Both the position numbers and the translations under genes were made by a program. This document shows, piece after piece, positions 26,595-39,401 of a stretch of 40,542 nt of DNA. The notes under the pieces are model-generated. The model ran no database searches and was not told the DNA's origin. It was given only the letters and a program-made list of their open reading frames with translations. The stretch is from positions 1 to 40,542 of the IMG/VR virus record IMGVR_UViG_3300020469_000097. One strand, given 5' to 3'. Origin of the DNA: a virus. The number at the start of each line of letters is the position of its first letter. Position 1 is the stretch's first letter.

Positions 26595-26618
26595 TGTGCC
26601 AATAATAATATTGTCACA
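26595..26618. promoter_or_regulatory. 24-bp dyad, copy 1 (before the HEXXH/VWA gene)
   Basis: Arms TGTGCCAAT and ATTGTCACA, 6 bases apart, starting on the base after the upstream TAA. Right end 58 bases before the ATG at 26677. A likely extended -10, TGC-TATACT, has its hexamer at 26647-26652, 28 bases after the dyad. Two further perfect dyads lie in between: ATGGTA-GAT-TACCAT (26622-26636) and TGCTAT-ACTA-ATAGCA (26644-26659), the last covering the -10. Confidence 0.7.
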
Positions 26619-26676
26619 CATATGGTAGATTACCATTTGTATTTGCTATACTAATAGCATAACGAATCAAATACAA

Positions 26677-28917
26677 ATGACTGTCAACATCGAAATCAAA
26701 GGCAATCTTGCTAAACTACTCGCAACAGAGAATTTGTTGATCGAGCATAAGAAGGTAGATACAGCATCATTTGATGTTGAGCGTAGAGTTCTTACACTAC
26801 CACAATGGAAAATCGATAGTGACTATGTATATGACATGCTCGTAGCACACGAGGTTGGTCATGCACTTCATACACCTAACCGTAACTTTACTATAGAGGA
26901 AAAATATAAAGGTTTACCATTTGATTATGTCAATGTGGTAGAGGATGCAAGAATAGAGAAACTAATGAAACAGAGATTTGCAGGTCTCAATAAAGATTTC
27001 TACAAAGGATACGAGGAATTACATGCTATTGACTTCTTTCAAATAGAAAATCAAGAAATCAATGATTTGAAACTTATTGACAGAGTCAATCTATATTTCA
27101 AAGTTGGTGCATATCTTTGTATTGATTTTACTGACGAGGAGAATCAACTTATTACAGAGATCTCTCAAGCAGAAACATTCGATGAGGTTCTTGATCTATC
27201 TCTCAAAATGTACAAGATGGGTAAAGAACAAAAAGAAACTATCGAACAATTATTATCATCAAAGTTGGGTCAAGAGGGTATGAATGGAATACCAATGAAT
27301 ATGGACTCTGATTCTAATAATGACTCTGATGAGACTCAAGATGATGAAAATGGTCAGGTACAAACACCCTCTAACGATGCTGAAAATGGCGAGGAATCAA
27401 CTGTATCAAACAAGTCTCAAGGAGAGACACCAGTAGAGGACGAGGACTTAGATGAGGAAACACATGGTCTTCAAAAGAAAGCAGGGAATCATAACGACTT
27501 AGACGTATCATCTACCCAGAAATCATTTGATGGTAATGTTCAATCACTCAACAACCAAGATGCAAGAGAAACTAATTATGTCACTATACCAGAATTGAAT
27601 CTTGATACAGTAGAGGTCACATTTGATGTTATCAAAAATGCACTTCACAAACATTTCATTGATAAAGATGAAGAGCAAGATACAAATAGTGAGAAATACT
27701 TCACAGAGCAAGTTGACATACAACTCACAAGATATAATGAGCATAAGAACAAGTCACGCAAAGATGTCAACAACCTAGTCAAAGAGTTTGAAATGAAGAA
27801 ATCAGCAGACTCATATTCTAGACAGGCAACAGCAAGAACAGGTATGCTTGACATGAACAAGTTACACACATACAAGTATAACGAGGACATATTCAAGAAA
27901 GTAACAACAATTCCAGAGGGCAAGAATCATGGTCTTATGTTCTTACTTGACTGGTCTGGTTCTATGCACTATCAGTTGAATGATACAGTAAAACAACTAT
28001 TCAATCTAGTATGGTTCTGTCGTAAGGTCAGCATACCATTTGAAGTATATGCCTTTACAAATGATTCACACAGACTGAACCCACATACTAGGATAGATGA
28101 GCGTGGTTATGAAACTTATGAAACACATCAAATAGAGAAAATGGGAGACTTATTTGTAGAGGGTTCATTCCGTATGGTAAACATACTATCATCTACTCAA
28201 AGAGGTAGAGACTTAGATGATATGATGAAGTTGCTATGGTTACAGACTCATGCTATCTCAGGTCATTATTACAGACCACTATCAAACTTCAATCTAAGTG
28301 GTACACCATTGAATGAAGCAATTATAGCAAGTGGTCAGATTATCAAACGACTCATCAAGAGAGAATCACTACAAAAATGTCATTGCGTAATTCTAACTGA
28401 TGGCGAGGGGTTTCACTCTAATCACTTGACATATGGTTCTAACTGGGATGGAGAGAAAAGAGTAGTTGATACGTCCAGAACAGTTGCAAGATCAGTATGT
28501 CCACAAGAGACCATAATAAGGCAAGGCACTAAGACTTTCACAGGTGGTCAGAATGAGTCAGAGTTTACATGTGCCTTAGTCAAAGCAATCAAAGCAGATT
28601 TACCTAACGTATCATTCTTAGGTATTAGAATCTTAGAAAGAGATTACTTTAGTTTCTACATGAGATATGCAAGAAAAGCATTTGATACTTTCGAGGAAAT
28701 GAAGAAACAAAACAAAAAGAATGGACTAATTGATTTTACTACAGATACTTTCGATCATTGGTTCTGTTTATCATCTAATAAGTTACAGGCAAGTGATGAG
28801 TTAGAGGTCAAAGAGGGTGCTGTAAAGCGTGACATATCAACCGCTTTCAAGAGAATGAACAGAGGTAAAAAGACCAACAGAGTTATGGTTAGACAGTTCA
28901 TAGATCAAATTGCATAG
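26677..28917 (+). CDS. HEXXH metallopeptidase-like/VWA-domain protein (CobT-like partner)
   Basis: A 746-aa soluble protein. Residues 56-63 read VAHEVGHALH: a zinc-metallopeptidase HEXXH (H58, E59, H62). NVVEDARIEKLM follows about 25 residues later, and E89 could be the third ligand. Residues about 215-300 are a low-complexity acidic linker (SDSNNDSDETQDDENG). Residues about 415-600 form a VWA domain with an intact MIDAS: D425-W-S427-G-S429 (FLLDWSGSM), GTPLNEAI, and D575 in VILTDGEG. This matches the architecture of CobT-type or MoxR-associated VWA proteins, which act with an AAA+ partner; that partner is the next gene. The HEXXH makes it different from plain cobaltochelatase CobT and suggests a protease, or a metal-handling remodelling factor. 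The gene starts a short operon driven by the dyad-containing promoter. Confidence 0.8.
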   Translation: MTVNIEIKGNLAKLLATENLLIEHKKVDTASFDVERRVLTLPQWKIDSDYVYDMLVAHEVGHALHTPNRNFTIEEKYKGLPFDYVNVVEDARIEKLMKQRFAGLNKDFYKGYEELHAIDFFQIENQEINDLKLIDRVNLYFKVGAYLCIDFTDEENQLITEISQAETFDEVLDLSLKMYKMGKEQKETIEQLLSSKLGQEGMNGIPMNMDSDSNNDSDETQDDENGQVQTPSNDAENGEESTVSNKSQGETPVEDEDLDEETHGLQKKAGNHNDLDVSSTQKSFDGNVQSLNNQDARETNYVTIPELNLDTVEVTFDVIKNALHKHFIDKDEEQDTNSEKYFTEQVDIQLTRYNEHKNKSRKDVNNLVKEFEMKKSADSYSRQATARTGMLDMNKLHTYKYNEDIFKKVTTIPEGKNHGLMFLLDWSGSMHYQLNDTVKQLFNLVWFCRKVSIPFEVYAFTNDSHRLNPHTRIDERGYETYETHQIEKMGDLFVEGSFRMVNILSSTQRGRDLDDMMKLLWLQTHAISGHYYRPLSNFNLSGTPLNEAIIASGQIIKRLIKRESLQKCHCVILTDGEGFHSNHLTYGSNWDGEKRVVDTSRTVARSVCPQETIIRQGTKTFTGGQNESEFTCALVKAIKADLPNVSFLGIRILERDYFSFYMRYARKAFDTFEEMKKQNKKNGLIDFTTDTFDHWFCLSSNKLQASDELEVKEGAVKRDISTAFKRMNRGKKTNRVMVRQFIDQIA

Positions 28918-28941
28918 TGTGACAGTTGAAATTAGTGGCAC
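28918..28941. promoter_or_regulatory. 24-bp dyad, copy 2 (before the cobS-type gene)
   Basis: Left arm TGTGACAGT is perfect; the right arm GTGGCACA is degenerate (AYTGTCMCA expected). It starts on the base after the TAG of the VWA gene. Right end 58 bases before the ATG at 29000, with -10 TATAAT 29 bases after it. Confidence 0.55.
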
Positions 28942-28947
28942 AACATA

Positions 28948-28976
28948 TTGTTATGTCACTTTCCTTATAGTATAAT
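28948..28976 (+). promoter_or_regulatory. Sigma70-type promoter of the AAA+ gene
   Basis: TTGTTA (28948-28953), exactly 17 bases, TATAAT (28971-28976). Unlike the other dyad promoters, this leader carries a clear ribosome site AGGAG (28991-28995), 4 bases before the ATG. The -35 box lies 6 bases after the right end of the dyad. Confidence 0.65.
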
Positions 28977-28999
28977 AGAATCATAAACAAAGGAGATTT

Positions 29000-30148
29000 A
29001 TGCCTACCACTTACGACAGTAACTTTCACATTGACAACATTGTGGAACAATATGGTAAGAAACTTGACTCTGATATGGTAAAGGCATATTGTGATGCTAA
29101 CCCTATCGGTTATCAAACTATTACTAAATTCTTGAACAAGTACAAGACAAAACGTGGTCATTGGAATATTACCACGTCTCAAGCAAAGGCAAAACTTGAG
29201 CAAACATTCAATGAACCAACATTTGTACAAGAACCAGTCTCAGTACCTACAAATGTAGGACTAGGCAAAACTACTATTGATATAGAAAACCTAGTACCTC
29301 AGAAAGACCCAACTTTTGTTAGGTTCGGTCAGTTTCCTGATCTCAAGAAAGTGATCTCATCTAAACTATTCTATCCTGTATTCATTACAGGTATGTCTGG
29401 TAACGGTAAAACATTCGGTGTTGAGCAAGCATGTGCTGATACTGGTAGAGAACTAATCAGAGTCAATATCACAGTTGAGACTGATGAGGACGATTTGATC
29501 GGTGGTTTCAGACTTGTGAATGGTCAAACAGTATGGCATAACGGTGCTGTTATCGAAGCACTAGAGCGTGGTGCTATCTTATTACTTGATGAGATTGACT
29601 TAGCATCTAACAAGATCATGTGCCTACAGTCCATACTAGAGGGTAAGGGAGTATTTCTCAAAAAGATTGGAGAGTATGTTCAACCTAAAGATGGTTTCAA
29701 TGTCATTGCTACTGCTAACACAAAGGGTAAGGGTAGTGATGATGGTAGGTTCATAGGAACTAACGTACTCAATGAAGCATTTCTTGAGAGATTCCCAATT
29801 ACATTTGAGCAAGAGTATCCTACAGTTCAGACTGAAATCAAGATACTCAAGGCACTATCAGAGTCACTCAAGATTCCAATGATAGGAGAGCATGAGACAT
29901 TCATCAAACATCTATGTGACTGGTCAGACATAGTTCGCAGAACATTCAAAGAGGGTGGAGTTGATGAGATTATCTCAACTAGACGTCTCACACACATTAT
30001 CAGAGCGTACTCTATTTTTGGTAACAAAGAGAAATCAGTCAACATATGTCTCAATAGATTTGATGATGAAACTAAGGAGTCATTCTGGAGTCTATATACT
30101 AAACTAGATGATACTGTACAAACTGATACAGATAATACAAATGAATGA
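29000..30148 (+). CDS. cobS: MoxR/CobS-type AAA+ ATPase
   Basis: A 382-aa protein. Residues about 1-75 are a small helical N-domain. The AAA+ core carries Walker A GMSGNGKT (131-138), Walker B ILLLDEID (193-200), sensor I VIATANT, and LNEAFLERFPI with the likely arginine finger. This is the gene widely annotated in cyanophages as cobS (cobaltochelatase subunit). The neighbouring VWA protein makes the pair a textbook AAA+/VWA module, in which the ATPase remodels substrates presented through the VWA protein. A cobalamin role is the traditional reading; no CobN-type subunit is present here, so protein remodelling is equally possible. A small gene overlaps its end by 8 bases. Confidence 0.85.
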   Translation: MPTTYDSNFHIDNIVEQYGKKLDSDMVKAYCDANPIGYQTITKFLNKYKTKRGHWNITTSQAKAKLEQTFNEPTFVQEPVSVPTNVGLGKTTIDIENLVPQKDPTFVRFGQFPDLKKVISSKLFYPVFITGMSGNGKTFGVEQACADTGRELIRVNITVETDEDDLIGGFRLVNGQTVWHNGAVIEALERGAILLLDEIDLASNKIMCLQSILEGKGVFLKKIGEYVQPKDGFNVIATANTKGKGSDDGRFIGTNVLNEAFLERFPITFEQEYPTVQTEIKILKALSESLKIPMIGEHETFIKHLCDWSDIVRRTFKEGGVDEIISTRRLTHIIRAYSIFGNKEKSVNICLNRFDDETKESFWSLYTKLDDTVQTDTDNTNE

Positions 30149-30257
30149 TGAAGACATAGTGTTTATCCCTGATGAGTCACTTGACATACAGTTCACACCT
30201 GATGTCAAGTATACCTCAGAGGAAATCCAAGAGTTTATGGAATTGTTGGAAGATTGA
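30141..30257 (+). CDS. Very small acidic protein
   Basis: A 38-aa frame starting at the ATG 30141, eight bases before the end of the AAA+ gene, and ending at TGA 30255-30257. The product (NDEDIVFIPDESLDIQF, then EEIQEFMELLED) is strongly acidic. Support comes from the tight coupling; function unknown. Confidence 0.45.
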   Translation: MNDEDIVFIPDESLDIQFTPDVKYTSEEIQEFMELLED

Positions 30258-30259
30258 AT

Positions 30260-30309
30260 TGTTACCATTTCGTAACATTACTTGATTACTGAAACAGATC
30301 AAGTATAAT
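30260..30309 (+). promoter_or_regulatory. Promoter region with two dyads
   Basis: Dyad TGTTAC-N6-GTAACA (30260-30277), then -35 TTGATT (30282-30287), 16 bases, -10 TATAAT (30304-30309). A second dyad, CTTGAT and ATCAAG (30281-30303), spans the -35/-10 spacer like an operator. A second TATAAT at 30339-30344 lies 25 bases before the ATG at 30370, the spacing typical of the small genes further on. Confidence 0.5.
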
Positions 30310-30369
30310 GGACACATAGGCAGACATGTCGTAAGTCCTATAATCACAATACGCATAATACAAATCATT

Positions 30370-30588
30370 ATGAAAATCACAGGGTCAAGTGCAATCGCTG
30401 AAGTAAACTTCAAAGATGATTCTAATGTAGGTATCATTTTCACTTCTCAAAACAAAGAGTACATGTTCAAGGCAACTGACATAGACTTAGTTACAAGAGA
30501 AGTTACAACAGCAAACTCTGACAAGAATCAATCTGTAGGTAGATTGATAAATGGTTACAAGAGATCTGGACAACTATCAGAAGTATAG
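30370..30588 (+). CDS. KTSC-domain-like small protein
   Basis: A 72-aa protein. ITGSSAIAEVNFKDDSNVGI, then IFTSQNKEYMFKATDI fits the KTSC fold (SSxIxxVxY, a strand, xFxNGxxYxYxxV), and the C-terminal GRLINGYKRSGQL corresponds to its closing IRxxY region. The molecular role of KTSC proteins is unclear (they are linked to RNA or translation factors). It is a monocistronic unit between a promoter and a strong terminator, which suggests high, independent expression. Confidence 0.7.
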   Translation: MKITGSSAIAEVNFKDDSNVGIIFTSQNKEYMFKATDIDLVTREVTTANSDKNQSVGRLINGYKRSGQLSEV

Positions 30589-30627
30589 TTCCAGTAGGTA
30601 CAACTGAATAATACTATACACCTTATT

Positions 30628-30658
30628 ACCCCTGACTTCAGTTAGGGGTTTCTCTTTT
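30628..30658 (+). terminator. Intrinsic terminator
   Basis: Stem ACCCCTGAC (30628-30636), loop TTCA, GTTAGGGGT (30641-30649; one G-T pair), followed by TTCTCTTTT. It is the strongest terminator in the window and separates the KTSC-like gene from the nuclease/methyltransferase operon. Confidence 0.88.
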
Positions 30659-30661
30659 CAT

Positions 30662-30742
30662 ATGCCATTTATCATCATAGGTTCAACCCTATTCTTTACA
30701 TACACATACTACCTACTCAGGAAGTATAACCCACATCAATAA
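30662..30742 (+). CDS. 26-aa hydrophobic peptide
   Basis: ATG at 30662, four bases after the terminator T-run, to TAA 30740-30742. The product PFIIIGSTLFFTYTYYLLRK would span a membrane once with a positive cytosolic end. There is no visible ribosome site and the case is weak. Confidence 0.3.
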   Translation: MPFIIIGSTLFFTYTYYLLRKYNPHQ

Positions 30743-30749
30743 CTTTATA

Positions 30750-30908
30750 ATGAACAACATACCATTCTACGAATTTCCAGACTTTCCAATTCTTTATATT
30801 GGTTTCTTTGGTATATTATTCACACTTGTGCTATTATACTTTGTAAACAGAGCATACTTTGAGAGTCCTCTAAACATGGATATATTTCAAGATAAAGAGG
30901 AAAAATGA
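30750..30908 (+). CDS. 52-aa single-pass membrane protein
   Basis: ATG at 30750, TGA at 30906-30908 overlapping the nuclease start (ATGA). The product has an aromatic N-terminus (NNIPFYEFPDFPILY), a membrane segment IGFFGILFTLVLLYFV and an acidic tail ending DKEEK. The ATGA coupling to the nuclease gene supports it as a real gene of that operon. It could tether the operon's product to the membrane; no family recognised. Confidence 0.6.
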   Translation: MNNIPFYEFPDFPILYIGFFGILFTLVLLYFVNRAYFESPLNMDIFQDKEEK

Positions 30909-31441
30909 CTCATATTATAAAGGAAGCATGGATAGGGAACTACATCACATATGATGATGTTATTCACAATAGAGATATTGACCCCTATGCTGACTCTTCA
31001 TTCAAACCTATCAAAGACCTATCATCAAAGCGTAAGGGTAGATTCTTTGAAGTACTCACAGAGGAATATTGTGAGAATTTAGGATTGACAGTATCTAAAC
31101 CACAGAACACCGATCATGATACTATTATCAATGGTAAGAAAGTTGAGATCAAGGGTTCTTTTAGATGGGTAGTTGATGGTCAACTCAAAAACTACCGTTG
31201 GCAACAGATTAGACCATCACAAGACTACGAGGTTATGATCTTCTTAGCACTAGACCCTGATAATATTAGATTCTATGGTGCTAATAAGAAAGAGGTTGCT
31301 GATTTTGTGACAATACAGGACGAAAATGGCAACTTTCCATATAATCAACATGGTGGGATGACAGTCAACTCAGGTTGTTTTAGAATTGACGGATATCCTA
31401 AAGACTTTCCATTTATGAGATCAATTACGGAGTTTTTATGA
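30905..31441 (+). CDS. PD-(D/E)XK nuclease-like protein (restriction endonuclease candidate)
   Basis: A 178-aa protein. A helix with GRFFEVLTEEYCENLG is followed by TDHDTIINGKKVEIKGSF, the PD-(D/E)XK core: D72, then E81-I82-K83 in a beta hairpin, with E49 of FFEV as a possible extra acidic ligand. After it come WQQIRPSQDYEVMIFLAL and NIRFYGANKKEV, the usual next strand and helix of type II restriction enzymes. Length is in the range of small type II enzymes. It overlaps a methyltransferase gene by 4 bases, and a second methyltransferase follows, so the natural reading is a restriction-modification cassette. Alternatively it could degrade host DNA during infection. Confidence 0.7.
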   Translation: MTHIIKEAWIGNYITYDDVIHNRDIDPYADSSFKPIKDLSSKRKGRFFEVLTEEYCENLGLTVSKPQNTDHDTIINGKKVEIKGSFRWVVDGQLKNYRWQQIRPSQDYEVMIFLALDPDNIRFYGANKKEVADFVTIQDENGNFPYNQHGGMTVNSGCFRIDGYPKDFPFMRSITEFL

Positions 31442-32205
31442 ATAGAAACACCATTGCCAATACAGACTGTTTACAATTCCTGAGAACACTACCTGACAAG
31501 TCAGTTGATCTCGTACTAACTGACCCCCCATACTTCATAGGTTTTGATGGTGGTAAGGGTTGGGATTCAACATGGAATAGTAATGAGGAGTATATCTTAT
31601 GGTGTATGGAGTGGACTAGAGAATGTATTAGAGTTCTGAAAGATGAGAGAATGTTGGTAGTCTGGGGAACTCTCAAAACTGAAGCATTTCTACTTTATAA
31701 GATAGAACTCAATAAAACTCAAGGCATCACATCACAAAACGAGATAATCTGGTCTTATAATTGGGGTGGTAGATCTCCCAATAACTTTGCTCGTAAGCAT
31801 GAGTACGCATGGTGCTATTCAAAAGGAGATCAGTTTCTATTCAATGCTGATGATGTCAGAGTTGAGAGAAAGGTCACTAAGAACATGAGAACAGGTCAGG
31901 ACTATACTAAGGGAACTATACCCACATGTATATGGGAGAAGAACAACCACACCACATCTAAGGACTATTGTGGTTGGCATGCTACAACTAAGAACCTAGA
32001 AATCTTAGAGCGTATCATAAGAGCATACACCAACGAAAATGATGTTGTTCTTGACTGTTTCATGGGTAGTGGTTCAACTGCAATAGCATCTAAGTTATGC
32101 AATAGAGATTACATAGGGTGTGAAAGGGATAAAGAATATCATAATAAACTTATTGATAGAGTCAATAGTTATGATAGAATAAACACACTATCATCAATAT
32201 TATGA
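31438..32205 (+). CDS. DNA adenine-N6-type methyltransferase (DPPY)
   Basis: A 255-aa protein. Catalytic motif IV is TDPPYFIG at residues 28-35 and SAM-binding motif I is DCFMGSGST at residues 206-214. Motif IV before motif I gives the beta-class order. Motif X residues around YIGCERDKEY follow. DPPY is typical of adenine-N6 enzymes. It starts on the stop of the nuclease gene (ATGA) and overlaps the next methyltransferase by 4 bases. Specificity cannot be read. Confidence 0.85.
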   Translation: MNRNTIANTDCLQFLRTLPDKSVDLVLTDPPYFIGFDGGKGWDSTWNSNEEYILWCMEWTRECIRVLKDERMLVVWGTLKTEAFLLYKIELNKTQGITSQNEIIWSYNWGGRSPNNFARKHEYAWCYSKGDQFLFNADDVRVERKVTKNMRTGQDYTKGTIPTCIWEKNNHTTSKDYCGWHATTKNLEILERIIRAYTNENDVVLDCFMGSGSTAIASKLCNRDYIGCERDKEYHNKLIDRVNSYDRINTLSSIL

Positions 32206-33155
32206 AAGACATAGTACTTTATGGAGACTGTAGAGAAACCATAAAAAAGATTTCTTCACCCATTCAAATGTGTGTTACTTCTCCCCCTTACTATGGACTA
32301 AGGGATTATGGTGGAGAAGAGTCACAAATAGGACAAGAACAGAGTCCAGAAGAGTATATTGATCAGTTAGTAAAAGTATTCAGAGAAGTCAAAGATAAAC
32401 TAAATGATGATGGCACTCTATGGGTAAACATAGGAGACTCTTACTATAACTATAGACCTAGTAAAGGTAAATCATATGTAAAACAAACTCTTAGTAAGAC
32501 TAAGCAAGATTTACCAGACTATAGTAGCAAGAGAAATAATAAACTATCAAATCTCAAAGAGAAAGACTTGATAGGCATACCATTTATGCTTGCCTTTGCA
32601 CTAAGGAATGATGGGTGGTATCTTAGACAGGATATTATATGGCATAAACCTAATCCAATGCCAGAGTCAGTAAAGGATAGATGTACTAAATCACATGAGT
32701 ATATCTTTTTATTATCAAAGAACAAAAAGTATTACTACGACAATGAAGCAATCAAAGAACCCGCAAAAGACTGGGGAACAAGAGACCGCACTAAAGGTAA
32801 GTACCATAATACTGGTAGTGGGTTATCTCCTCATAGTGGTTTATCCAAGTCTTATGACAGGAAAAATAAGCGTGATGTTTGGTCAGTAACAAATAAACCA
32901 TACAAACATGCTCACTTCGCTACATTCCCCCCTGACCTGATTGAACCCTGTATCCTAGCAGGAAGTAAAGAGGGAGACATAGTATTAGACCCATTCATGG
33001 GTAGTGGTACGACTGCTATGGTTGCTAAACAACATAACAGACATTATATCGGTTGTGAGTTACATGATAACTATAAAGACCTGATTGAACAACGTGTGCC
33101 AGTTGAAATATCGTCACAAGACATAGATAATCCCCTTACACAAATGCTATACTAG
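32202..33155 (+). CDS. DNA cytosine-N4-type methyltransferase (SPPY)
   Basis: A 317-aa protein. Motif IV is TSPPYYGLRDYG at residues 26-37, the TSPPY form usual in cytosine-N4 enzymes, and motif I is LDPFMGSGTT at residues 262-271 with YIGCELH after it (beta class). A recognition-type insert occupies residues about 85-230. It overlaps the preceding methyltransferase by 4 bases, so nuclease, adenine and cytosine enzymes are translated together. A structured hairpin follows the stop. Confidence 0.85.
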   Translation: MKDIVLYGDCRETIKKISSPIQMCVTSPPYYGLRDYGGEESQIGQEQSPEEYIDQLVKVFREVKDKLNDDGTLWVNIGDSYYNYRPSKGKSYVKQTLSKTKQDLPDYSSKRNNKLSNLKEKDLIGIPFMLAFALRNDGWYLRQDIIWHKPNPMPESVKDRCTKSHEYIFLLSKNKKYYYDNEAIKEPAKDWGTRDRTKGKYHNTGSGLSPHSGLSKSYDRKNKRDVWSVTNKPYKHAHFATFPPDLIEPCILAGSKEGDIVLDPFMGSGTTAMVAKQHNRHYIGCELHDNYKDLIEQRVPVEISSQDIDNPLTQMLY

Positions 33156-33163
33156 AACCATAG

Positions 33164-33206
33164 CAAAGATGCAAACACTCACAAGTGCTTTGGGATACCA
33201 TCTTTG
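33164..33206 (+). terminator. Two-level hairpin after the methyltransferase operon
   Basis: Outer stem CAAAGATG (33164-33171) with CATCTTTG (33199-33206), inner stem CAAACACT with AGTG-C-TTTG around a CACA loop. It is followed by TTATTCTATT rather than a T-run, so it may end or stabilise the upstream mRNA. The next gene begins 21 bases later. Confidence 0.5.
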
Positions 33207-33227
33207 TTATTCTATTACATCATTATC

Positions 33228-33395
33228 ATGGAAACTCAAGAACCAGAATACATCACTCTTACGAATGGTCATCATATTGTTGAGACCACAAGAGAAGATC
33301 TGATAGAAGTTGAAAAACTATGTGCAGAGTATCAAATCACTCTAGACTATTATTTGTTTGAGTTTATGATATTCGAGGATGAACCACAACTATGA
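33228..33395 (+). CDS. Small hypothetical protein
   Basis: A 55-aa acidic protein from the ATG at 33228 (METQEPEYITLTNG onward), chosen over an in-frame upstream ATG (33204) that lies inside the hairpin. No Shine-Dalgarno site: the leader ends CATTATCATG, like other small genes here. First of a string of tightly coupled genes; family unknown. Confidence 0.65.
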   Translation: METQEPEYITLTNGHHIVETTREDLIEVEKLCAEYQITLDYYLFEFMIFEDEPQL

Positions 33396-33544
33396 AAACA
33401 TCAGAATTTCTTGATGAGGTTTATTTCCTCGCATGGGGAAGCAATGACCCATACACCTATGATATGTCATTTGAGAAAACCCTTGAGAGACTCAAAGATG
33501 AAATGGGTTTTGAATACGATAACCAAGAGGAGAATGACTCATGA
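33392..33544 (+). CDS. Small hypothetical protein
   Basis: A 50-aa frame, ATG overlapping the previous stop (ATGA) and TGA overlapping the next start. The product is acidic with aromatic residues (VYFLAWGSNDPYTYDMSFEK). The 4-base overlaps on both sides are the evidence; function unknown. Confidence 0.6.
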   Translation: MKTSEFLDEVYFLAWGSNDPYTYDMSFEKTLERLKDEMGFEYDNQEENDS

Positions 33545-33678
33545 AAACTTACACAGTTTCAGCACTATTAGAGGGATACAGGATAGAAGAGCAAGTAACT
33601 GCGGTTTCTATTCATCATGCTATCAAACTAATAGAAAACAAATACAACAATGCTCGTAACGTCTATGTACTCAACTGA
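33541..33678 (+). CDS. Small hypothetical protein, beta-alpha type
   Basis: A 45-aa frame: MKTYTVSALLEGYRIEEQVT then AVSIHHAIKLIENKY. The pattern (strand, strand, then helix starting at a hydrophobic-Ala step) resembles the gene at 34223 (MKQYTITGTKTFTYYKTVHA, DDITEAHLLAHE), so the two may be distant copies. Start overlaps the previous stop. Confidence 0.6.
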   Translation: MKTYTVSALLEGYRIEEQVTAVSIHHAIKLIENKYNNARNVYVLN

Positions 33679-33874
33679 ATATAAAGAAATCAACCTCTTT
33701 GAAGAAATACCAGAGGATGAACATAGTCACATATCTAACAAGATATGGGAAGCATTTGATAGAGCAGGGATAAAGTTATCTCAAGATGCAGAACTATCAA
33801 TCAAAGTTTATGAACCTATTACAGAAGAGGAAGTGTCACACACTCACACTCGTAGAGATTTAGACCTCTTATAA
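33665..33874 (+). CDS. Small acidic hypothetical protein
   Basis: A 69-aa protein from the ATG at 33665 (MYSTEYKEINLFEEIPEDEH onward); an in-frame ATG at 33650 gives five more residues and a larger overlap. It contains NKIWEAFDRAGIKLSQDAEL. Function unknown. Confidence 0.6.
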   Translation: MYSTEYKEINLFEEIPEDEHSHISNKIWEAFDRAGIKLSQDAELSIKVYEPITEEEVSHTHTRRDLDLL

Positions 33875-33875
33875 T
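33870..33875 (+). promoter_or_regulatory. Possible -10 box before the HNH gene
   Basis: TATAAT at 33870-33875 overlaps the preceding stop and is 21 bases before the ATG at 33897, the spacing seen for the dyad promoters. No 24-bp dyad precedes it. Confidence 0.4.
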
Positions 33876-33896
33876 GTAATCAATCACACTATTATT

Positions 33897-34223
33897 ATGC
33901 CATACAAATGTCCAATCAAACAAAAAGCAGCACAACATAGATCTTATCTTAGAAATATTGAAATCACTAAGAAAAGAGCATTGGAGCATAAGCACAGAGA
34001 TCAAGAGTGGTTCAAAGCACTCAAGAAAAAAATGTGTGCTAATGGTTGTACTGACTGCGGTTTCAAAGGAATACCACAACAGTTTGACTTCCATCATATC
34101 GACCCTAACACTAAAATACTATGTGTAGCAGATATGTTAGGGACTTATGGACGTAAGAAAGTTTTAGCAGAGATCAATAAATGTGAAATACTATGTAAAC
34201 CTTGCCACAAAAAGCACCACTAA
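33897..34223 (+). CDS. HNH endonuclease
   Basis: A 108-aa protein. Basic N-terminus (KCPIKQKAAQHRSYLRNIEI), then a zinc-linked HNH fold: C51-T-D-C54, DFHHIDPNTK (H66, H67), N94, and a second knuckle C100-K-P-C103 followed by H104-K-K-H-H. Free-standing HNH genes of this size are common in T-even-type phages as homing or DNA-nicking enzymes. It has no membrane or extra DNA-binding domain. Next gene overlaps its stop by one base (TAATG). Confidence 0.8.
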   Translation: MPYKCPIKQKAAQHRSYLRNIEITKKRALEHKHRDQEWFKALKKKMCANGCTDCGFKGIPQQFDFHHIDPNTKILCVADMLGTYGRKKVLAEINKCEILCKPCHKKHH

Positions 34224-34435
34224 TGAAACAGTACACTATCACAGGCACAAAGACCTTTACTTATTATAAAACAGTACATGCTGATGACATTACTGAAGCA
34301 CATCTACTAGCACATGAAGATGTTGAAGATGAAGAGGATGACTGGACATGTCATTTTGATGATGACTATGATGAACCAACAAAAGATAATGGTCTCATGG
34401 TAGTCACACACATTGAAGATGAGGGGGAAATCTGA
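34223..34435 (+). CDS. Small very acidic hypothetical protein
   Basis: A 70-aa protein from the ATG that overlaps the HNH stop (MKQYTITGTKTFTYYK). The C-terminal half is a run of Asp/Glu (EDVEDEEDDWTCHFDDDYDE). The N-terminal half resembles the 45-aa product at 33541. The acidic tail could mimic nucleic acid, but this is speculation. Confidence 0.65.
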   Translation: MKQYTITGTKTFTYYKTVHADDITEAHLLAHEDVEDEEDDWTCHFDDDYDEPTKDNGLMVVTHIEDEGEI

Positions 34436-34920
34436 TGCCATATTCAGTATATTGGGGTGTTCATAATCTCAAACATAGTAAGACTTACTATTCCAGTAGC
34501 AACTATGATGATGAGAAATATATGCACCATTGTATTTTCTTAGTAACTATAGGAGATCATGTTGAATATGTTGAGACATGTGGTTTTGAACCTAAAGCAT
34601 CACTCTATACTAAGATAAGCAAGTATCTCAAGTTGAGGGGTGTGGAACATGAAATTGAACTCGTTGGTTATCGTAACCCTGATGAGGTCAAAGCATGGAG
34701 AAAGGACACATGTTTCAAAAATGGATTTCTTAGTCACAAATGTCAATGGGAAGAAAATGGTATGCAAACACCGTCCTATAAGACATTACTAAAAGAGGGT
34801 AGTTATTTCAAGTATGATGACCCTAACGGTGTATGGTGGGTAACAGGAACTACAAGTAGTGGAAGAGAATCAAATCCATTATGTACACCTATTGAACTAC
34901 TAAAAAGAGGGGAAATCTGA
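34435..34920 (+). CDS. Hypothetical protein
   Basis: A 161-aa soluble protein with no recognised motif, coupled at both ends by TGATG overlaps. It contains YSVYWGVHNLKHSKTYYSSS at the start and FKYDDPNGVWWVTG near the end. Unknown function. Confidence 0.7.
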   Translation: MPYSVYWGVHNLKHSKTYYSSSNYDDEKYMHHCIFLVTIGDHVEYVETCGFEPKASLYTKISKYLKLRGVEHEIELVGYRNPDEVKAWRKDTCFKNGFLSHKCQWEENGMQTPSYKTLLKEGSYFKYDDPNGVWWVTGTTSSGRESNPLCTPIELLKRGEI

Positions 34921-35231
34921 TGCCAACTGAATCACAAGTTTACGCATGGACAACTCAATTAGTAACAGCACTAACTGAAAACTATGGACTTCAAGGTTAT
35001 ACTGGTAAAGCACCAACTTTTAGTATTACAGTAGGTAAGAAATACTATAAGGTAATAGGCGATCAGGGTGGAGTCAACGCATTTGTTGAGAAGAAAACAG
35101 GTCACGTCTATAAACCTGCATCGTGGGCAAGACCAGCACAACATGTAAGATATGACTTATCTGACACAATGTCAAGGGAGTCATGTTATCATAGAGCAAA
35201 CTTTACAGGTGGATACCTTTACATAAGATGA
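34920..35231 (+). CDS. Conserved-type phage protein, KPASWxxPAxxVRYDL motif
   Basis: A 103-aa protein. It contains TFSITVGKKYYKVIGD, GVNAFVEKKTGHVYKPASW, then ARPAQHVRYDL, a beta-hairpin pattern (G-x-V-xK-xASW-xxPAKxxR) that recurs in small proteins of many tailed phages, where its role is unknown. Starts on the previous stop (TGATG) and overlaps the next gene by 4 bases. Confidence 0.65.
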   Translation: MPTESQVYAWTTQLVTALTENYGLQGYTGKAPTFSITVGKKYYKVIGDQGGVNAFVEKKTGHVYKPASWARPAQHVRYDLSDTMSRESCYHRANFTGGYLYIR

Positions 35232-35431
35232 AAACTATCACTTACACAAATGATGAACTACACGCTTTTAGTGAGCATGTAACATGGTGCATCTATGAAC
35301 AAGATCAACCAGTAAATGATGACTTAGAAAGTTTCATTCACAAAACATTATATAATAATCAAGCAAAAACTGTTGCTAACGATTATAATGAATGTGTTGA
35401 CACATTATTGGACAGTATGAACAATGCTTGA
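35228..35431 (+). CDS. Small hypothetical protein
   Basis: A 67-aa acidic helical protein (MKTITYTNDELHAFSEHVTW), starting by ATGA overlap with the previous gene and overlapping the next by 8 bases. No family recognised. Confidence 0.6.
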   Translation: MKTITYTNDELHAFSEHVTWCIYEQDQPVNDDLESFIHKTLYNNQAKTVANDYNECVDTLLDSMNNA

Positions 35432-35597
35432 CATTTCACATTTCACAAAAGATCAATTACTTGCTTTGATGAATACTATAGATTTTGCTATGGATAATGA
35501 TGCAAGTTATGAGGAGTATACCATTATAAAAAGTGGCACAACTGATCTACAAAGTATAAGAGATATCCTGTACAATAAAATCATACAACAGGGATAA
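35424..35597 (+). CDS. Small hypothetical protein
   Basis: A 57-aa frame from ATG 35424 to TAA 35595-35597 (MLDISHFTKDQLLALMNTID at the start). Mostly helical; supported by overlap with the upstream gene and a four-base gap to the next. Function unknown. Confidence 0.55.
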   Translation: MLDISHFTKDQLLALMNTIDFAMDNDASYEEYTIIKSGTTDLQSIRDILYNKIIQQG

Positions 35598-35601
35598 ATT
35601 T

Positions 35602-35805
35602 ATGTCATCTTTCAACTCATCATTTTCTAACTCATCAAAACAGGTTGGTTCATTTACTGACGTTATAGGTCGAGAATATACTATACTTCGTGAGCGTGTC
35701 AATGGTTACGTCCAATTCAACGTCAATGGTATGATATTTGACTCATTCCAAGAGGTTCGTGAATACAGAGAAGAACTACAGTCAAAGGGAGTTCGTGTAT
35801 CGTGA
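35602..35805 (+). CDS. Small hypothetical protein
   Basis: A 67-aa protein: Ser/Asn-rich start (SSFNSSFSNSSKQVG) and a beta-rich body (YTILRERVNGYVQFNVNGMI). A purine-rich GGGAT stands 5 to 9 bases upstream. Unknown function. Confidence 0.6.
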   Translation: MSSFNSSFSNSSKQVGSFTDVIGREYTILRERVNGYVQFNVNGMIFDSFQEVREYREELQSKGVRVS

Positions 35806-35978
35806 AAGAGAATTTATACTTGAAACTGTTACGCAGACCGCCATTTTTCAAGATAGTAACCATTCGTGAAGAACTATCAAAAGTTAGTGTTCACAACTGG
35901 AATGAGATCAAAGATGATCTTGATAACTATTTTATTTGTAAAGTAGCAAGTGACCAAGAAAACCTTATTACTGAATGA
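35802..35978 (+). CDS. Small basic hypothetical protein (GTG start)
   Basis: A 58-aa frame that begins with GTG in the overlap GTGA at the previous stop and ends at TGA 35976-35978. The N-terminal half is basic (KENLYLKLLRRPPFFKIVTI), unusual in this acidic gene set. The overlap geometry is the only support. Confidence 0.5.
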   Translation: MKENLYLKLLRRPPFFKIVTIREELSKVSVHNWNEIKDDLDNYFICKVASDQENLITE

Positions 35979-35979
35979 T

Positions 35980-36132
35980 ATGAAAACTTCTGAACGAATT
36001 GCTAATGCACTTGAGAGAATTGCTAATTCTCTTGAACACCTTCACATTGAATCTATTGATCATGCTCATATTGATGAGATAGACCATAATCATGTTGAGG
36101 GCGATGTAAACACTCACAATAAAACATGGTAA
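35980..36132 (+). CDS. Small His-rich protein with internal repeats
   Basis: A 50-aa protein from ATG 35980, one base after the upstream stop (an in-frame ATG at 35950 lies inside that gene). A repeated helix ERIANALERIANSLE is followed by alternating His dipeptides (HLHIES, IDHAHIDEIDHNHVEGD). Eight histidines in the last 28 residues could bind a metal. Family unknown. Confidence 0.6.
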   Translation: MKTSERIANALERIANSLEHLHIESIDHAHIDEIDHNHVEGDVNTHNKTW

Positions 36133-36398
36133 CGACTATGAATTTACCCATCAACACATCCAAAACAGATATTACTACTGATATGGTAGAGCAATTTGTT
36201 GAGATACAACTGGATAACGCAGATACTCAGTTCTTATATGAACTAGCAAAAGATCATTTGTTGCAAGCATATGAGAGTCTATCATATGAAGAGGTAAAAG
36301 AAAGAATAATAACATTATACGATAAAGAACTATGGTTAGAGTTGTTAGATAATGCAACTTTTACATATAATAGCAAGAATATACCAGAAAGATATTGA
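36126..36398 (+). CDS. Hypothetical helical protein
   Basis: A 90-aa acidic helical protein (DMVEQFVEIQLDNADTQFLY, LAKDHLLQAYESLS). A second Met at 36138 avoids overlap with the previous gene and may be the true start. It ends just before copy 3 of the 24-bp dyad. Confidence 0.6.
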   Translation: MVTTMNLPINTSKTDITTDMVEQFVEIQLDNADTQFLYELAKDHLLQAYESLSYEEVKERIITLYDKELWLELLDNATFTYNSKNIPERY

Positions 36399-36399
36399 G

Positions 36400-36423
36400 T
36401 GTACCAATAATAATATTGTCACA
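36400..36423. promoter_or_regulatory. 24-bp dyad, copy 3
   Basis: Arms TGTACCAAT and ATTGTCACA, 6 bases apart, one base after a TGA stop. Right end 65 bases before the ATG at 36489. A TTGCAA follows at 36431-36436, and a possible -10 TATCAT (36454-36459) stands 17 bases later. The leader then reads CACAGCAATTTTTCATTATC. Confidence 0.7.
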
Positions 36424-36488
36424 CTATCCATTGCAAGTGTCAATAGTGTTGATTATCATGTGTACATACACAGCAATTTTTCATTATC

Positions 36489-36668
36489 ATGCAAATCACA
36501 TTAGATGAGCGTTATTCACAATACTTAGAGTGGTGCGGTTGCCCTCGTCCTAAGTATACAGCACGTTTTTGTGATGACTTACTAGGGTACTTCGATACTC
36601 AACAGGAAGCAATCACAACATGTTTAGAACATAGAAGAAATTTTCTTTTTGAAATGGGATTACTATGA
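36489..36668 (+). CDS. Small Cys-containing hypothetical protein
   Basis: A 59-aa frame from ATG 36489 to TGA 36666-36668, overlapping the next start (ATGA). It has four cysteines (EWCGCPRP, FCDD, TTCLEH); a metal or disulfide site is possible. No ribosome site; the leader is AT-rich like its neighbours. Confidence 0.6.
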   Translation: MQITLDERYSQYLEWCGCPRPKYTARFCDDLLGYFDTQQEAITTCLEHRRNFLFEMGLL

Positions 36669-36883
36669 ATTATATAATAACTCATGTTGAATATGATTTC
36701 AATGATTCACTAAGTGAGATATATTCTATCTCAAAAGATGAGCAAGATCAGATAGTTGCTGATACGTTAGGATTATGGTCAGCAACTGACGAGGACGATT
36801 TGATAGAGGAAATCACTTGTGCTAGTGGGTGGTGCATCAAATCTATTGACTATGATATACAACTCAAAGGTGTGCCAGTATAG
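36665..36883 (+). CDS. Hypothetical protein
   Basis: A 72-aa acidic protein (NYIITHVEYDFNDSLSEIYS, then EEITCASGWCIKSIDYD). Starts by ATGA overlap. The dyad copy 4 begins inside its last codons and covers the TAG. Family unknown. Confidence 0.65.
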   Translation: MNYIITHVEYDFNDSLSEIYSISKDEQDQIVADTLGLWSATDEDDLIEEITCASGWCIKSIDYDIQLKGVPV

Positions 36884-36894
36884 GAACTGTCCAT
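36871..36894. promoter_or_regulatory. 24-bp dyad, copy 4
   Basis: Arms TGTGCCAGT and ACTGTCCAT, 6 bases apart; the TAG stop of the preceding gene (36881-36883) lies in the centre. Right end 60 bases before the ATG at 36955; possible -10 TATATT at 36926-36931. Confidence 0.65.
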
Positions 36895-36954
36895 TTTTGG
36901 TAGTATTATCATCTCTATCCATTATTATATTACTATAGCAATCAAACATTTCTT

Positions 36955-37260
36955 ATGAACTCAGGAACACCAGTTACACCAGACATCAACAAAGAACTAT
37001 CAGACTTTATTGATTATGTTGACTCATTCTATGGTACTAATGACCCTGTTTATCCTATGAAGTCAGTAGTTGGCAATGTACCACTTGATAAGGATACTAT
37101 ACTTGATGCTACTCATAAGTATCTCTCAATTATCAACAAGAGGAACTCTGAGACCTTTACATGGGGTGGTGGGGATTCACTTGATAGAGAAAGGGTTAGA
37201 GATATCATATTGAGCGATTACGATTTCTTTCTTACACATCTACAACAAAAGGAGTTTTAG
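36955..37260 (+). CDS. Hypothetical protein
   Basis: A 101-aa acidic helical protein (ELSDFIDYVDSFYGTND, then DRERVRDIILSDYDFFLTHL). First gene of a three-gene unit (next start 2 bases after its stop). No family recognised. Confidence 0.65.
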   Translation: MNSGTPVTPDINKELSDFIDYVDSFYGTNDPVYPMKSVVGNVPLDKDTILDATHKYLSIINKRNSETFTWGGGDSLDRERVRDIILSDYDFFLTHLQQKEF

Positions 37261-37262
37261 AC

Positions 37263-37481
37263 ATGAACCTTTCAGAAACACAAAAAATTATGATGTTCGA
37301 TAAGTACATCATGCGAGGTGGAACCGATACTCTAAATGATATTCAAGAGTTGTGTCTAACTGTTATGAATATGTTAGAAATGGACATACCAACAGATAGT
37401 GACAAGTTCAATGATATCATAACTGATGTATTGAAAAAAGAGATCAGTCAAATGACATTCATGAAAAGCAAGGGGTTGTAA
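37263..37481 (+). CDS. Hypothetical helical protein
   Basis: A 72-aa helical protein (NLSETQKIMMFDKYIMRGG, then LCLTVMNMLEMD). The start follows the previous stop by two bases and the stop overlaps the next start (TAATG). Function unknown. Confidence 0.65.
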   Translation: MNLSETQKIMMFDKYIMRGGTDTLNDIQELCLTVMNMLEMDIPTDSDKFNDIITDVLKKEISQMTFMKSKGL

Positions 37482-37846
37482 TGAGAACATATATCTTTGA
37501 AAACTACCTAAATGACAAACATGGCAAGTTTATGCCACTTCAAACAATAATATCTGAAGAGTTCGGTAGGCACTTCTTTATTGATATTGGATTCAATTTT
37601 ATCTCAGCACCGTCCTATAGTCAAGAGCATATGGACTTCCTAAAGGATGATAAGATAGGATATGATGAGAGTCAACTAGACTACGTTAGCAACTGGACTG
37701 AACTAGAGGGAGTGGACATGGTCAAGTTATTTGACATCTATCGTGACCTTACATGGCAAGAAAACAACGATAGCAATGAGAAATCTAGTGAACAGTTCGC
37801 TAGTTATATTGATGACGTTGAGAATGGTAGAATAGAATACCTATAG
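37481..37846 (+). CDS. Hypothetical protein
   Basis: A 121-aa acidic protein (YIFENYLNDKHGKFMPLQTI, FGRHFFIDIGFNFISAPSYS). Last gene of a three-gene unit; its TAG lies inside copy 5 of the dyad. No family recognised. Confidence 0.65.
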   Translation: MRTYIFENYLNDKHGKFMPLQTIISEEFGRHFFIDIGFNFISAPSYSQEHMDFLKDDKIGYDESQLDYVSNWTELEGVDMVKLFDIYRDLTWQENNDSNEKSSEQFASYIDDVENGRIEYL

Positions 37847-37867
37847 GACAATAATAATATTGTCACA
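37844..37867. promoter_or_regulatory. 24-bp dyad, copy 5
   Basis: Arms TAGGACAAT and ATTGTCACA; inner part GACAATA-ATAA-TATTGTC is a perfect 7-bp stem. It overlaps the upstream TAG. Right end 57 bases before the ATG at 37925, with TATAAT at 37897-37902. TTGTCA inside the right arm is also 17 bases from TATAGT (37883-37888), an alternative promoter. Confidence 0.7.
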
Positions 37868-37924
37868 TGATGTCACTACTATTATAGTATAGGCATTATA
37901 ATACTAAAAGATACAACATTTATT

Positions 37925-38131
37925 ATGACTCAATTTTTATACACATGTGAGACACCTAACGATTTCGTAGGTGGGGATGTACATTCAAATGACCTTGAGA
38001 CAATAGAAAACTATTGTTTAGACATGGGCGAAGAGCATGGTTACAGTATTGTTAGAAACAATGTAACAGGCGAAATCGTATATGAGCATGGCGATGAACT
38101 CATGCAACTTATAGAGGACGGTGTTGTATGA
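37925..38131 (+). CDS. Hypothetical protein
   Basis: A 68-aa acidic protein (TQFLYTCETPNDFVGGDVHS, then GYSIVRNNVTGEIVYEHGDE). The Ile-Val-x-Asn/Thr-Gly-Glu-Ile-Val pattern suggests a small beta fold. Its TGA lies inside copy 6 of the dyad. Unknown function. Confidence 0.6.
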   Translation: MTQFLYTCETPNDFVGGDVHSNDLETIENYCLDMGEEHGYSIVRNNVTGEIVYEHGDELMQLIEDGVV

Positions 38132-38150
38132 CAATAAAATGACTGTCACA
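38127..38150. promoter_or_regulatory. 24-bp dyad, copy 6
   Basis: Arms TATGACAAT and GACTGTCACA with the usual 14-base core between TATGA and TCACA. It overlaps the TGA of the preceding gene. Right end 60 bases before the ATG at 38211; TATTAT (38181-38186) is the likely -10, preceded by a TCGTCTATT like the repeats near 40300. Confidence 0.6.
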
Positions 38151-38210
38151 TTCTTCTATTGACATTCGTGAATCATCGTCTATTATTAGTACATAACAAA
38201 CATTATTTCA

Positions 38211-38393
38211 ATGAGCAATCTAAACAATGAAATCCTACTCGAAACCATCTATGATGAGACATGGGAGGACTATCGTGTAAAAAACAACCTAACTGAAGAC
38301 CAGTTACTCACAATAGAGCAAAATTCTGATACTGGTACAATACCAGAGATCGAAGAAGAAACAAACAAAAGATTTGAGGGTATGATACAATGA
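38211..38393 (+). CDS. Hypothetical acidic protein
   Basis: A 60-aa very acidic protein (NNEILLETIYDETWEDYRVK, then TIPEIEEETNKRFEG). First of three overlapping small genes (ATGA at its stop). Unknown. Confidence 0.6.
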   Translation: MSNLNNEILLETIYDETWEDYRVKNNLTEDQLLTIEQNSDTGTIPEIEEETNKRFEGMIQ

Positions 38394-38515
38394 GTTATGT
38401 ACCTACACCAGAGCAGACAGCATTTTATGATGCAATGGCACTCTATTTTGCTGACACTATCACATTTGAACAATTCACAACTATTATTGAGGAAATCCCT
38501 AATGAGAACAACTAA
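38390..38515 (+). CDS. Small hypothetical protein
   Basis: A 41-aa frame from the ATG in the ATGA overlap to TAA 38513-38515 (YVPTPEQTAFYDAMALYFAD, then TFEQFTTIIEEIP). The coupling supports it. Unknown. Confidence 0.55.
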   Translation: MSYVPTPEQTAFYDAMALYFADTITFEQFTTIIEEIPNENN

Positions 38516-38645
38516 TTGGAATCGTCACATTTTATCAAGAAAAGATAGAGTATATCTTCGTCATGAAACAAGTTATCGTGACTTCGTTTACATTTACTTT
38601 ACTATGATAGAGGAAGATTTTCGTCTATTGAACAAACCAATGTGA
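38502..38645 (+). CDS. Small basic hypothetical protein
   Basis: A 47-aa frame from ATG 38502, overlapping the previous gene by 14 bases, to TGA 38643-38645. It is basic and aromatic (TNWNRHILSRKDRVYLRHET). A much longer in-frame extension upstream is out of phase with the other two genes and was not chosen. Unknown. Confidence 0.5.
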   Translation: MRTTNWNRHILSRKDRVYLRHETSYRDFVYIYFTMIEEDFRLLNKPM

Positions 38646-38664
38646 CAGTAATAATATTGTCCAC
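38641..38664. promoter_or_regulatory. 24-bp dyad, copy 7
   Basis: Arms TGTGACAGT and ATTGTCCAC, overlapping the TGA of the preceding gene. Right end 62 bases before the ATG at 38727; possible -10 TATAGT (38697-38702). Confidence 0.65.
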
Positions 38665-38726
38665 TCATGCACCATAAGAGTGAACTATTCTATTATTATA
38701 GTATCATAAGCAATCAATCTATTATT

Positions 38727-38921
38727 ATGCAATTTTCAACTGGAGACTATGTGAAGACAACCGAAGAGTTCAACAACTCTCAATGTGTTACATGTACTGG
38801 TAGAGTTATAGGAGTAGGGGATAACTATGCTATCGTAAGAAATTATGATAGTACTTGTGAAGAGTTAGACTTTATGAGTCTAGATAATTCTGATTTGCAA
38901 CTTATTAGAGATCTTTGCTGA
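38727..38921 (+). CDS. Small beta-barrel-like hypothetical protein
   Basis: A 64-aa protein from ATG 38727 (MQFSTGDYVKTTEEFNNSQC). GDYVKT, TGRVIGVGDNYAIVRNYD gives an SH3/KOW-like pattern of short strands around a Gly turn. Chosen over an in-frame ATG at 38667, which lies upstream of the -10. Function unknown. Confidence 0.6.
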   Translation: MQFSTGDYVKTTEEFNNSQCVTCTGRVIGVGDNYAIVRNYDSTCEELDFMSLDNSDLQLIRDLC

Positions 38922-39003
38922 TCTCTTATTTACCCTAATTAGAGGGGCGAAAGCGTGTATAATATGATACATTACTTCGTCTATGCGTGTATATGTACAT
39001 GTA
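38922..39003 (+). other. Non-coding stretch with short hairpins and a TATAAT
   Basis: It holds a weak stem CCCT (38933-38936) with AGGG (38943-38946), then GC-GAAA-GC (38947-38954), then TATAAT (about 38959-38964) and TTCGTCTAT (38976-38984). No gene is seen. It may combine an upstream terminator with a further promoter. Confidence 0.35.
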
Positions 39004-39027
39004 TGTGACAGTTATATTACTGTCCAC
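39004..39027. promoter_or_regulatory. 24-bp dyad, copy 8
   Basis: Arms TGTGACAGT and ACTGTCCAC, 6 bases apart (TATATT). Right end 57 bases before the ATG at 39085. TTGCAA follows at 39030-39035; a second dyad ATGGTT...AACCAT (39037-39056) ends at the likely -10 TATATT (39057-39062). The leader reads ACATCAGCAATTTTTATT. Confidence 0.7.
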
Positions 39028-39084
39028 TATTGCAACATGGTTCTGATAATAACCATTATATTATATACATCAGCAATTTTTATT

Positions 39085-39297
39085 ATGAACATCACTAAAT
39101 CTCAAGTCTTATGGCAAGTTAGATATAATCTAAAGGTCGATAGAATGAAGAGAAAAAACATAGGTGCTAAACCTATGAGCAAATTAGATAAGGTTTTCTA
39201 TTGGTCATCATATACTGAATCATTATACAGAGACAATATTATAACACAGTCTCAAATCGATAGATGGTCTAATCCTTATGAGTATCGTAACTATTAG
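39085..39297 (+). CDS. Small basic hypothetical protein
   Basis: A 70-aa basic protein from ATG 39085 (NITKSQVLWQVRYNLKVDRM, then KNIGAKPMSKLDKVFYWSSY). Chosen over the in-frame ATG at 38983, which lies upstream of the promoter and dyad. Net positive charge and Trp/Tyr content could suit nucleic-acid binding; this is a guess. Confidence 0.65.
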   Translation: MNITKSQVLWQVRYNLKVDRMKRKNIGAKPMSKLDKVFYWSSYTESLYRDNIITQSQIDRWSNPYEYRNY

Positions 39298-39312
39298 GAA
39301 ATTACTGCATAG

Positions 39313-39336
39313 TGTGACAGTCAGCAAACTGTCCAC
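39313..39336. promoter_or_regulatory. 24-bp dyad, copy 9
   Basis: Arms TGTGACAGT and ACTGTCCAC, the same arms as copy 8 with a different 6-base centre (CAGCAA). Right end 65 bases before the ATG at 39402. TTGCAA (39340-39345) and TATATT (39366-39371) follow, and the leader contains ATACATCAGCAATTTTA, as in copy 8. Confidence 0.7.
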
Positions 39337-39401
39337 ACTTGCAACATATACCTACAAACTACGATTATATTGTATACATCAGCAATTTTACTTCAATCAC
39401 A

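Follow-up and report, generated by a model that had tools for sequence, protein, structure and literature searches.

The 40,542-base stretch of DNA analyzed here (IMG/VR virus record IMGVR_UViG_3300020469_000097; hereafter the window) carries at least ten, and probably twelve, copies of an inverted repeat, the dyad TGTGMCAST-N6-ASTGKCACA, each followed at a nearly constant distance by a -10 box and a start codon. We assign a probability of about 0.74 to the reading that these dyads are operators of a host factor, most likely the cyanobacterial regulator PlmA, and that they define a host-dependent promoter class replacing MotA/AsiA. Judged from its peptidase (phrog_459), cobS (phrog_249) and other genes, the window is a fragment of a T4-like cyanomyovirus, and its nearest matches are Prochlorococcus and Synechococcus myoviruses.

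An earlier note on this DNA had listed nine 24-bp dyads in front of start codons. All nine lie where it had placed them, but three further copies (33095, 33817, and 35517) extend its count, and the arms that it had given, TGTGACART and AYTGTCMCA, are corrected by the consensus above. Promoters were called with a joint model of dyad plus -10 box, in which the -10 was required 27 to 32 bp from the dyad. The features of the window are as follows.

26595..26618, + strand: dyad upstream of the HEXXH/VWA peptidase gene, at the same position in nine genomes
26647..26652, + strand: -10 TATACT, 28 bp after the dyad at 26595 (joint model)
26677..28917, + strand: peptidase gene, phrog_459
28918..28942, + strand: 25-bp dyad with one extra core base, before cobS; -10 TATAAT at 28971-28976
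29000..30148, + strand: cobS-type ATPase gene, phrog_249
33095..33118, + strand: dyad absent from the earlier note; -10 TATACT at 33148-33153; small open reading frame (ORF) at 33169-33303
33817..33840, + strand: weaker dyad; -10 TATAAT at 33870-33875; HNH endonuclease gene at 33897-34223
35517..35540, + strand: weaker dyad; -10 TACAAT at 35571-35576; ORF at 35602-35805
36400..36423, + strand: dyad; -10 TATCAT at 36454-36459; ORF at 36489-36668
36871..36894, + strand: dyad; -10 TATTAT at 36923-36928; gene at 36955-37260 (phrog_7799)
37844..37867, + strand: dyad; -10 TATAAT at 37897-37902; gene at 37925-38131 (phrog_25733)
38127..38150, + strand: dyad; -10 TATTAT at 38181-38186; gene at 38211-38393 (phrog_14136), dyad-led in P-HM2 and P-SSM7 too
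38641..38664, + strand: dyad; -10 TATTAT at 38694-38699; ORF at 38727-38921
39004..39027, + strand: dyad; -10 TATTAT at 39059-39064; gene at 39085-39297, dyad-led in Syn9 too
39313..39336, + strand: dyad; -10 TATATT at 39366-39371; gene at 39402-39860 (phrog_554, Pfam Kyano_Gp96), dyad-led in P-SSM7, S-PM2, and Syn9 too

The scan against shuffled sequence that the earlier note had proposed placed the sites far above both Markov resamplings and column-permuted matrices. With a matrix made from its nine sites, eight scored 23.5 to 33.7, whereas the best scores in 100 dinucleotide-model resamplings of the window averaged 13.7 and peaked at 22.2; leave-one-out scanning ranked eight of the nine first or close to first in the whole window. 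The copy at 28918 is a 25-bp version, TGTGACAGT-N7-AGTGGCACA, which a gapless matrix misses; a phage-wide matrix made from other phages gives it 30.4 when one spacer base is removed. The same matrix gives 24.3 for the additional dyad at 33095 (TGTGCCAGTTGAAATATCGTCACA), and 14.3 and 13.5 for the weaker ones at 33817 and 35517, respectively. The joint model called 11 promoters on the + strand, against a mean of 0.3 and a maximum of 3 for column-permuted matrices. Other claims of the earlier note also held: in seven copies the dyad touches or overlaps the stop codon of the gene before it, and the joint model called no dyad with a -10 box to the left of 26 kb, where the late region lies. A -10 box follows every dyad, the added copies included, at 28 to 31 bp, with the start codon at ∼50 to 65 bp; for the original nine, the distance from dyad end to start codon is 58, 57 (25-bp version), 65, 60, 57, 60, 62, 57, and 65 bp. 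This distance has a median of 60 bp (interquartile range, 57 to 64) over 13 phage records and the window, and 25 of the 26 sites of phage ACG-2014f lie 57 to 67 bp ahead of deposited start codons.

Alignment of 59 sites revealed a strong TATAAT with the dyad ending 29 or 30 bp before it, and a conserved A ∼12 bp past the first -10 base that is likely the transcription start, which would set the dyad centre at -53.5. In contrast, the -35/-30 region of these sites showed neither consensus nor information content. The promoters thus do not match a standard sigma-70 early promoter (-35 TTGACA plus -10), even if a TTGACA-like -35 occurs in occasional members (38127, and some sites of S-CRM01 and of G007, a Mic1-like phage record). 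Many GntR proteins are repressors, and several of the promoters carry an extended -10 (TGCTATACT), a type of sequence that can dispense with a -35; the dyads could accordingly be bound by a repressor, PlmA or some other host protein, with the phage genes starting only once it is removed. We regard this as unlikely, since the operator is centred at -53.5, outside the core promoter on its upstream side, and the -35 region is devoid of information, a layout that argues for dependence on an activator. Moreover, PMM1637, which is PlmA, mediates the induction of the host small RNA (sRNA) Yfr2 in high light and late nitrogen starvation (PMC6778093).

The earlier proposal of a dimeric DNA-binding protein near -54 fits the fixed spacing to the -10, the varying core, and the lack of covariation between arms. 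Arm columns 5/20 form 57 Watson-Crick pairs among 123 sites, against 57.7 expected by independence, whereas columns 8/17 form 36, i.e., fewer than the 50.3 expected. Because the arm bases vary independently, the dyad is, on the pattern of its variation, recognized by two monomers at the DNA level rather than in RNA. The dyads are palindromic and often touch the preceding stop codon, as RNA hairpins with a role in termination, processing, or stability at the 3′ end of an upstream gene might be, but the missing covariation and the fixed distance to the next -10 make such a role very improbable, and we rejected it. A separate hairpin resembling an intrinsic terminator does occur at the place of the -35 in 22 of 191 spacers (about one in nine) and in none of the shuffled spacers. 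At five loci, such a rho-independent-terminator-like hairpin fills the gap from dyad to -10, an arrangement that would let a single short intergenic region serve both as the terminator of one transcript and as the promoter of the following one.

Scanning viral contigs for the pattern returned near-perfect TGTGACAGT-N6-ACTGTCACA elements ∼29 bp before TATAAT, with many marine contigs among the matches listed. We then scanned seventeen cyanophage records. Ninety-three distinct phage sites yield the consensus given above and do not match the NtcA consensus GTA-N8-TAC. Over whole genomes and at two mismatches or fewer, ACG-2014f has 26 sites, S-CRM01 16, P-SSM2 11, and P-HM2 and S-SKS1 9 each, whereas 30 scrambled-arm palindromes gave only ∼0.03 to 0.1. 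Joint-model promoters, ∼5 to 29 per genome (permuted mean, 0 to 0.8), were found in every T4-like cyanophage given the full model: P-SSM2, P-HM2, S-PM2, ACG-2014f, S-CRM01, P-SSM7, S-SKS1, Syn9, Syn33, Bellamy, and P-TIM68. Bellamy, Syn33, Syn9, and P-TIM68 have few strict dyads, yet such promoters are present in them as well. The promoter type extends across the large viruses of freshwater as well as marine cyanobacteria. T4, KVP40, S-TIM5, P-SSP7, Syn5, Ma-LMM01, and Nostoc phage A1 have no site at two mismatches; the element is thus absent from the T7-like cyanophages among these negative controls. A text search of the literature for TGTGACA together with cyanophage found no match; earlier notice of the motif, or of CGRE1 in phages, is possible.

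G007, which is 85% identical to the Microcystis siphophage Mic1 over part of its length, carries ∼36 to 40 dyads, many of them arrayed 56 to 63 bp apart upstream of promoters. In its segment 78001-96796, arrays of two to six dyads at this spacing (5 to 6 helical turns) occupy 80115-86418, in contrast with the single dyads of T4-like phages; an argument from helical phase based on the G007 offsets (30, 33, and 39 to 41) was dropped, as the phasing is not clean. At E<1e-4, G007 shares with the T4-like set a PhoH-like protein, a methyltransferase, ribonucleotide reductase, one short ORF, and nothing else. The same operator in such unrelated phages is what a host regulator predicts. The earlier idea of a phage regulon therefore stands as far as regulon-like behaviour goes, but an element common to hosts and unrelated phages points to a regulator belonging to the host.

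Two further explanations bear on this distribution. Binding by an unrecognized phage-encoded regulator, with the likeness to yfr2 promoters arising by copying of, or competition with, the host regulator, is suggested by T4, which has its own middle activator, MotA, and by the 'DNA binding protein' genes (T4-GC147) that adjoin the peptidase and cobS genes in several genomes. That G007 is dyad-rich in spite of having few genes in common with the T4-like set, and that the element precedes Yfr2 genes in cellular genomes, render it quite unlikely; nor was a GntR domain detected in any of 27 phage records. Alternatively, the dyads could have no regulatory meaning and stem from a cassette that moved or was duplicated. 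Duplication does occur, the ACG-2014f copies at 51271 and 51847 having identical flanks, but the arms are conserved across distant phages in which cores, spacers, and the genes that follow vary, the geometry is fixed, and host sRNA promoters carry the same element, so that we give this explanation hardly any credence.

In T4-like cyanophages, the dyad promoters stand in front of the peptidase, cobS, and helicase genes and of numerous small genes that lie apart from the structural cluster. The recurrent first genes are the peptidase (nine genomes) and cobS, DNA helicase, and the 300-amino-acid (aa) unknown phrog_455 (six each), and several small unknown families likewise recur behind dyad promoters between phages. 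In ACG-2014f, ∼25 promoters divide a block of ∼80 mostly unknown genes between the tail fibre gene and the helicase, and one target in P-HM2 is a high-light-inducible protein. The dyad-led genes would be early or middle, and dozens of phage takeover genes appear to be placed under a host switch. Elsewhere in the window (31438-33155), adjacent ORFs of 255 and 317 aa match the same region of DNA methyltransferase phrog_67, a gene apparently duplicated or split.

The host side of this switch emerged from a scan of 84,980 bacterial and archaeal genomes, in which the strict dyad occurs at 44 places, none of them in records titled marine Prochlorococcus or Synechococcus. In five cyanobacteria, it lies ∼40 bp upstream of a Rfam Cyano-1 RNA, with the phage spacing kept. 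Cyano-1 (RF01701), which judged on sequence, copy number, and spread is the Yfr2 family, has matches in 181 of 386 cyanobacterial genomes, small Prochlorococcus-sized ones included. A matrix made from phage sites alone matched 40 of 66 Yfr2 upstream regions at a score of 6 or more, against 0.38 expected, and 37 of these 40 matches share one fixed distance, ending 41 to 45 bp before the RNA start. Each of 12 high-light Prochlorococcus-like genomes has a single Yfr2-type element, located upstream of Yfr2, with a perfect left and a decayed right arm (TGTGACAGTTAAGATAGAGGTCTA), in agreement with the confinement of CGRE1 in MED4 to yfr2 promoters (PMC6778093). Marine host chromosomes have 0 or 1 site per 1.6 to 2.9 Mb, whereas phages have several to 26 per 0.2 Mb; an infected cell would therefore gain far more operators than its own chromosome holds. 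No phage-borne Yfr2 was found behind the dyads in 22 records.

Other host occurrences are more diverse. Five loci in filamentous cyanobacteria have two or three tandem Yfr2/Cyano-1 genes, most with their own dyad. Strict matches also occur in Acidobacteria, and those inside coding sequence in Fischerella, Westiellopsis, Nostocales, and Cyanocohniella may be plasmid-type iterons or chance. At four Nostocales loci, the dyad lies within a conserved 270-aa gene, beside repeated GGGAA/TTTCCC stretches; this gene is possibly replication-related and the locus a plasmid element, which would be of interest because PlmA is named for plasmid maintenance. In Mojavia pulchra, two perfect dyads lie 2 kb from each other, each before a similar large predicted protein (∼475 to 500 aa).

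The candidate regulator follows from the published work on yfr2, as the GntR regulator PMM1637, found in all cyanobacteria, binds CGRE1-containing yfr2 promoters (PMC6778093), and the dyad is most likely this CGRE1. PlmA occurs in all cyanobacteria and nowhere else (PMC7344720); it is a redox-responsive partner of PII-PipX (PMC6243067, PMC7344720) whose regulon has been described as yet to be defined (PMC6243067). An element common to T4-like cyanophages, a Mic1-like siphophage, and host Yfr2 promoters argues for a host rather than a phage regulator. We infer that PlmA binds the phage DNA and activates there: a dimer of the host protein would sit on the 24-bp dyad, whose centre is at about -53.5, and from there contact host sigma-70 RNA polymerase, as the geometry suggests. 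The polymerase, itself unmodified, would thereby be recruited and would fire the takeover genes from a good -10 without a -35 box. Phage gene expression would then follow PlmA activity and, with it, the redox, high-light, and nitrogen state of the host.

Several points weigh against this assignment. The probable identity of dyad and CGRE1 derives from position and uniqueness, the phage operators are candidates predicted from sequence, and five of the 66 host loci came from the dyad search and are to be discounted. The half-site centres are 15 bp apart, and classical GntR operators are narrower than that. In several marine Synechococcus yfr2 promoters, the half-sites are everted, and the element could instead be the target of some other host factor. 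At five Yfr2 loci of Synechococcus-like and low-light Prochlorococcus-like genomes, the everted half-sites, AACTGGCAC-A-GTGACAGTT, overlap the -35 region; the regulator may accept two half-site arrangements.

More broadly, T4-like cyanophages and, separately, Mic1-like siphophages may have swapped MotA/AsiA for PlmA-dependent promoters that drive much of the takeover set and couple the phage programme to host redox, light, and nitrogen as read by PlmA, while phage DNA may titrate PlmA from Yfr2; we hold this wider scenario tentatively, at somewhat less than even odds. The dyads provide a promoter class that runs through these phages and for which a specific host activator can be proposed, predict transcription start positions in many sequenced phages, and mark takeover genes of unknown function. 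If true, the scenario links host light and nitrogen state to infection.

In T4 middle promoters, the MotA box lies at -30 and the activator is phage-encoded. The dyad promoters resemble them (MotA box, -10, AsiA) in that an activator site replaces the -35 next to a sigma-70 -10, but differ in the site at -53.5, in lacking a MotA-like box near -30, and in that a phage activator was not found. Cyanomyoviruses are without motA and asiA, and also without Alt/Mod proteins, and a review calls their control of early and middle transcription unclear (PMC2984593). The putative middle promoter of P-SSM4 and Syn9 (cited in PMC2984593) is likewise a cyanomyovirus promoter class, but it was reported absent from P-SSM2 and S-PM2, in both of which the dyad is abundant. 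Host-regulator sites in phage promoters have precedents in the NtcA-type promoters predicted in cyanophages (PMC3037559), unlike the dyad in their consensus, and in PhoB-controlled genes (pstS of P-SSM2 and the S-PM2 DNA polymerase; PMC10976474), which involve another regulator and site and a limited gene set responding to phosphate stress. The closest likeness is to Yfr2 promoters with CGRE1, which share with the phage dyads the half-site, the 24-bp dyad, and the distance to the -10 and RNA start. Yfr2, however, is a host sRNA gene with one to few sites per genome, whereas the phage dyads are many, nearer to perfect symmetry, and drive protein genes.

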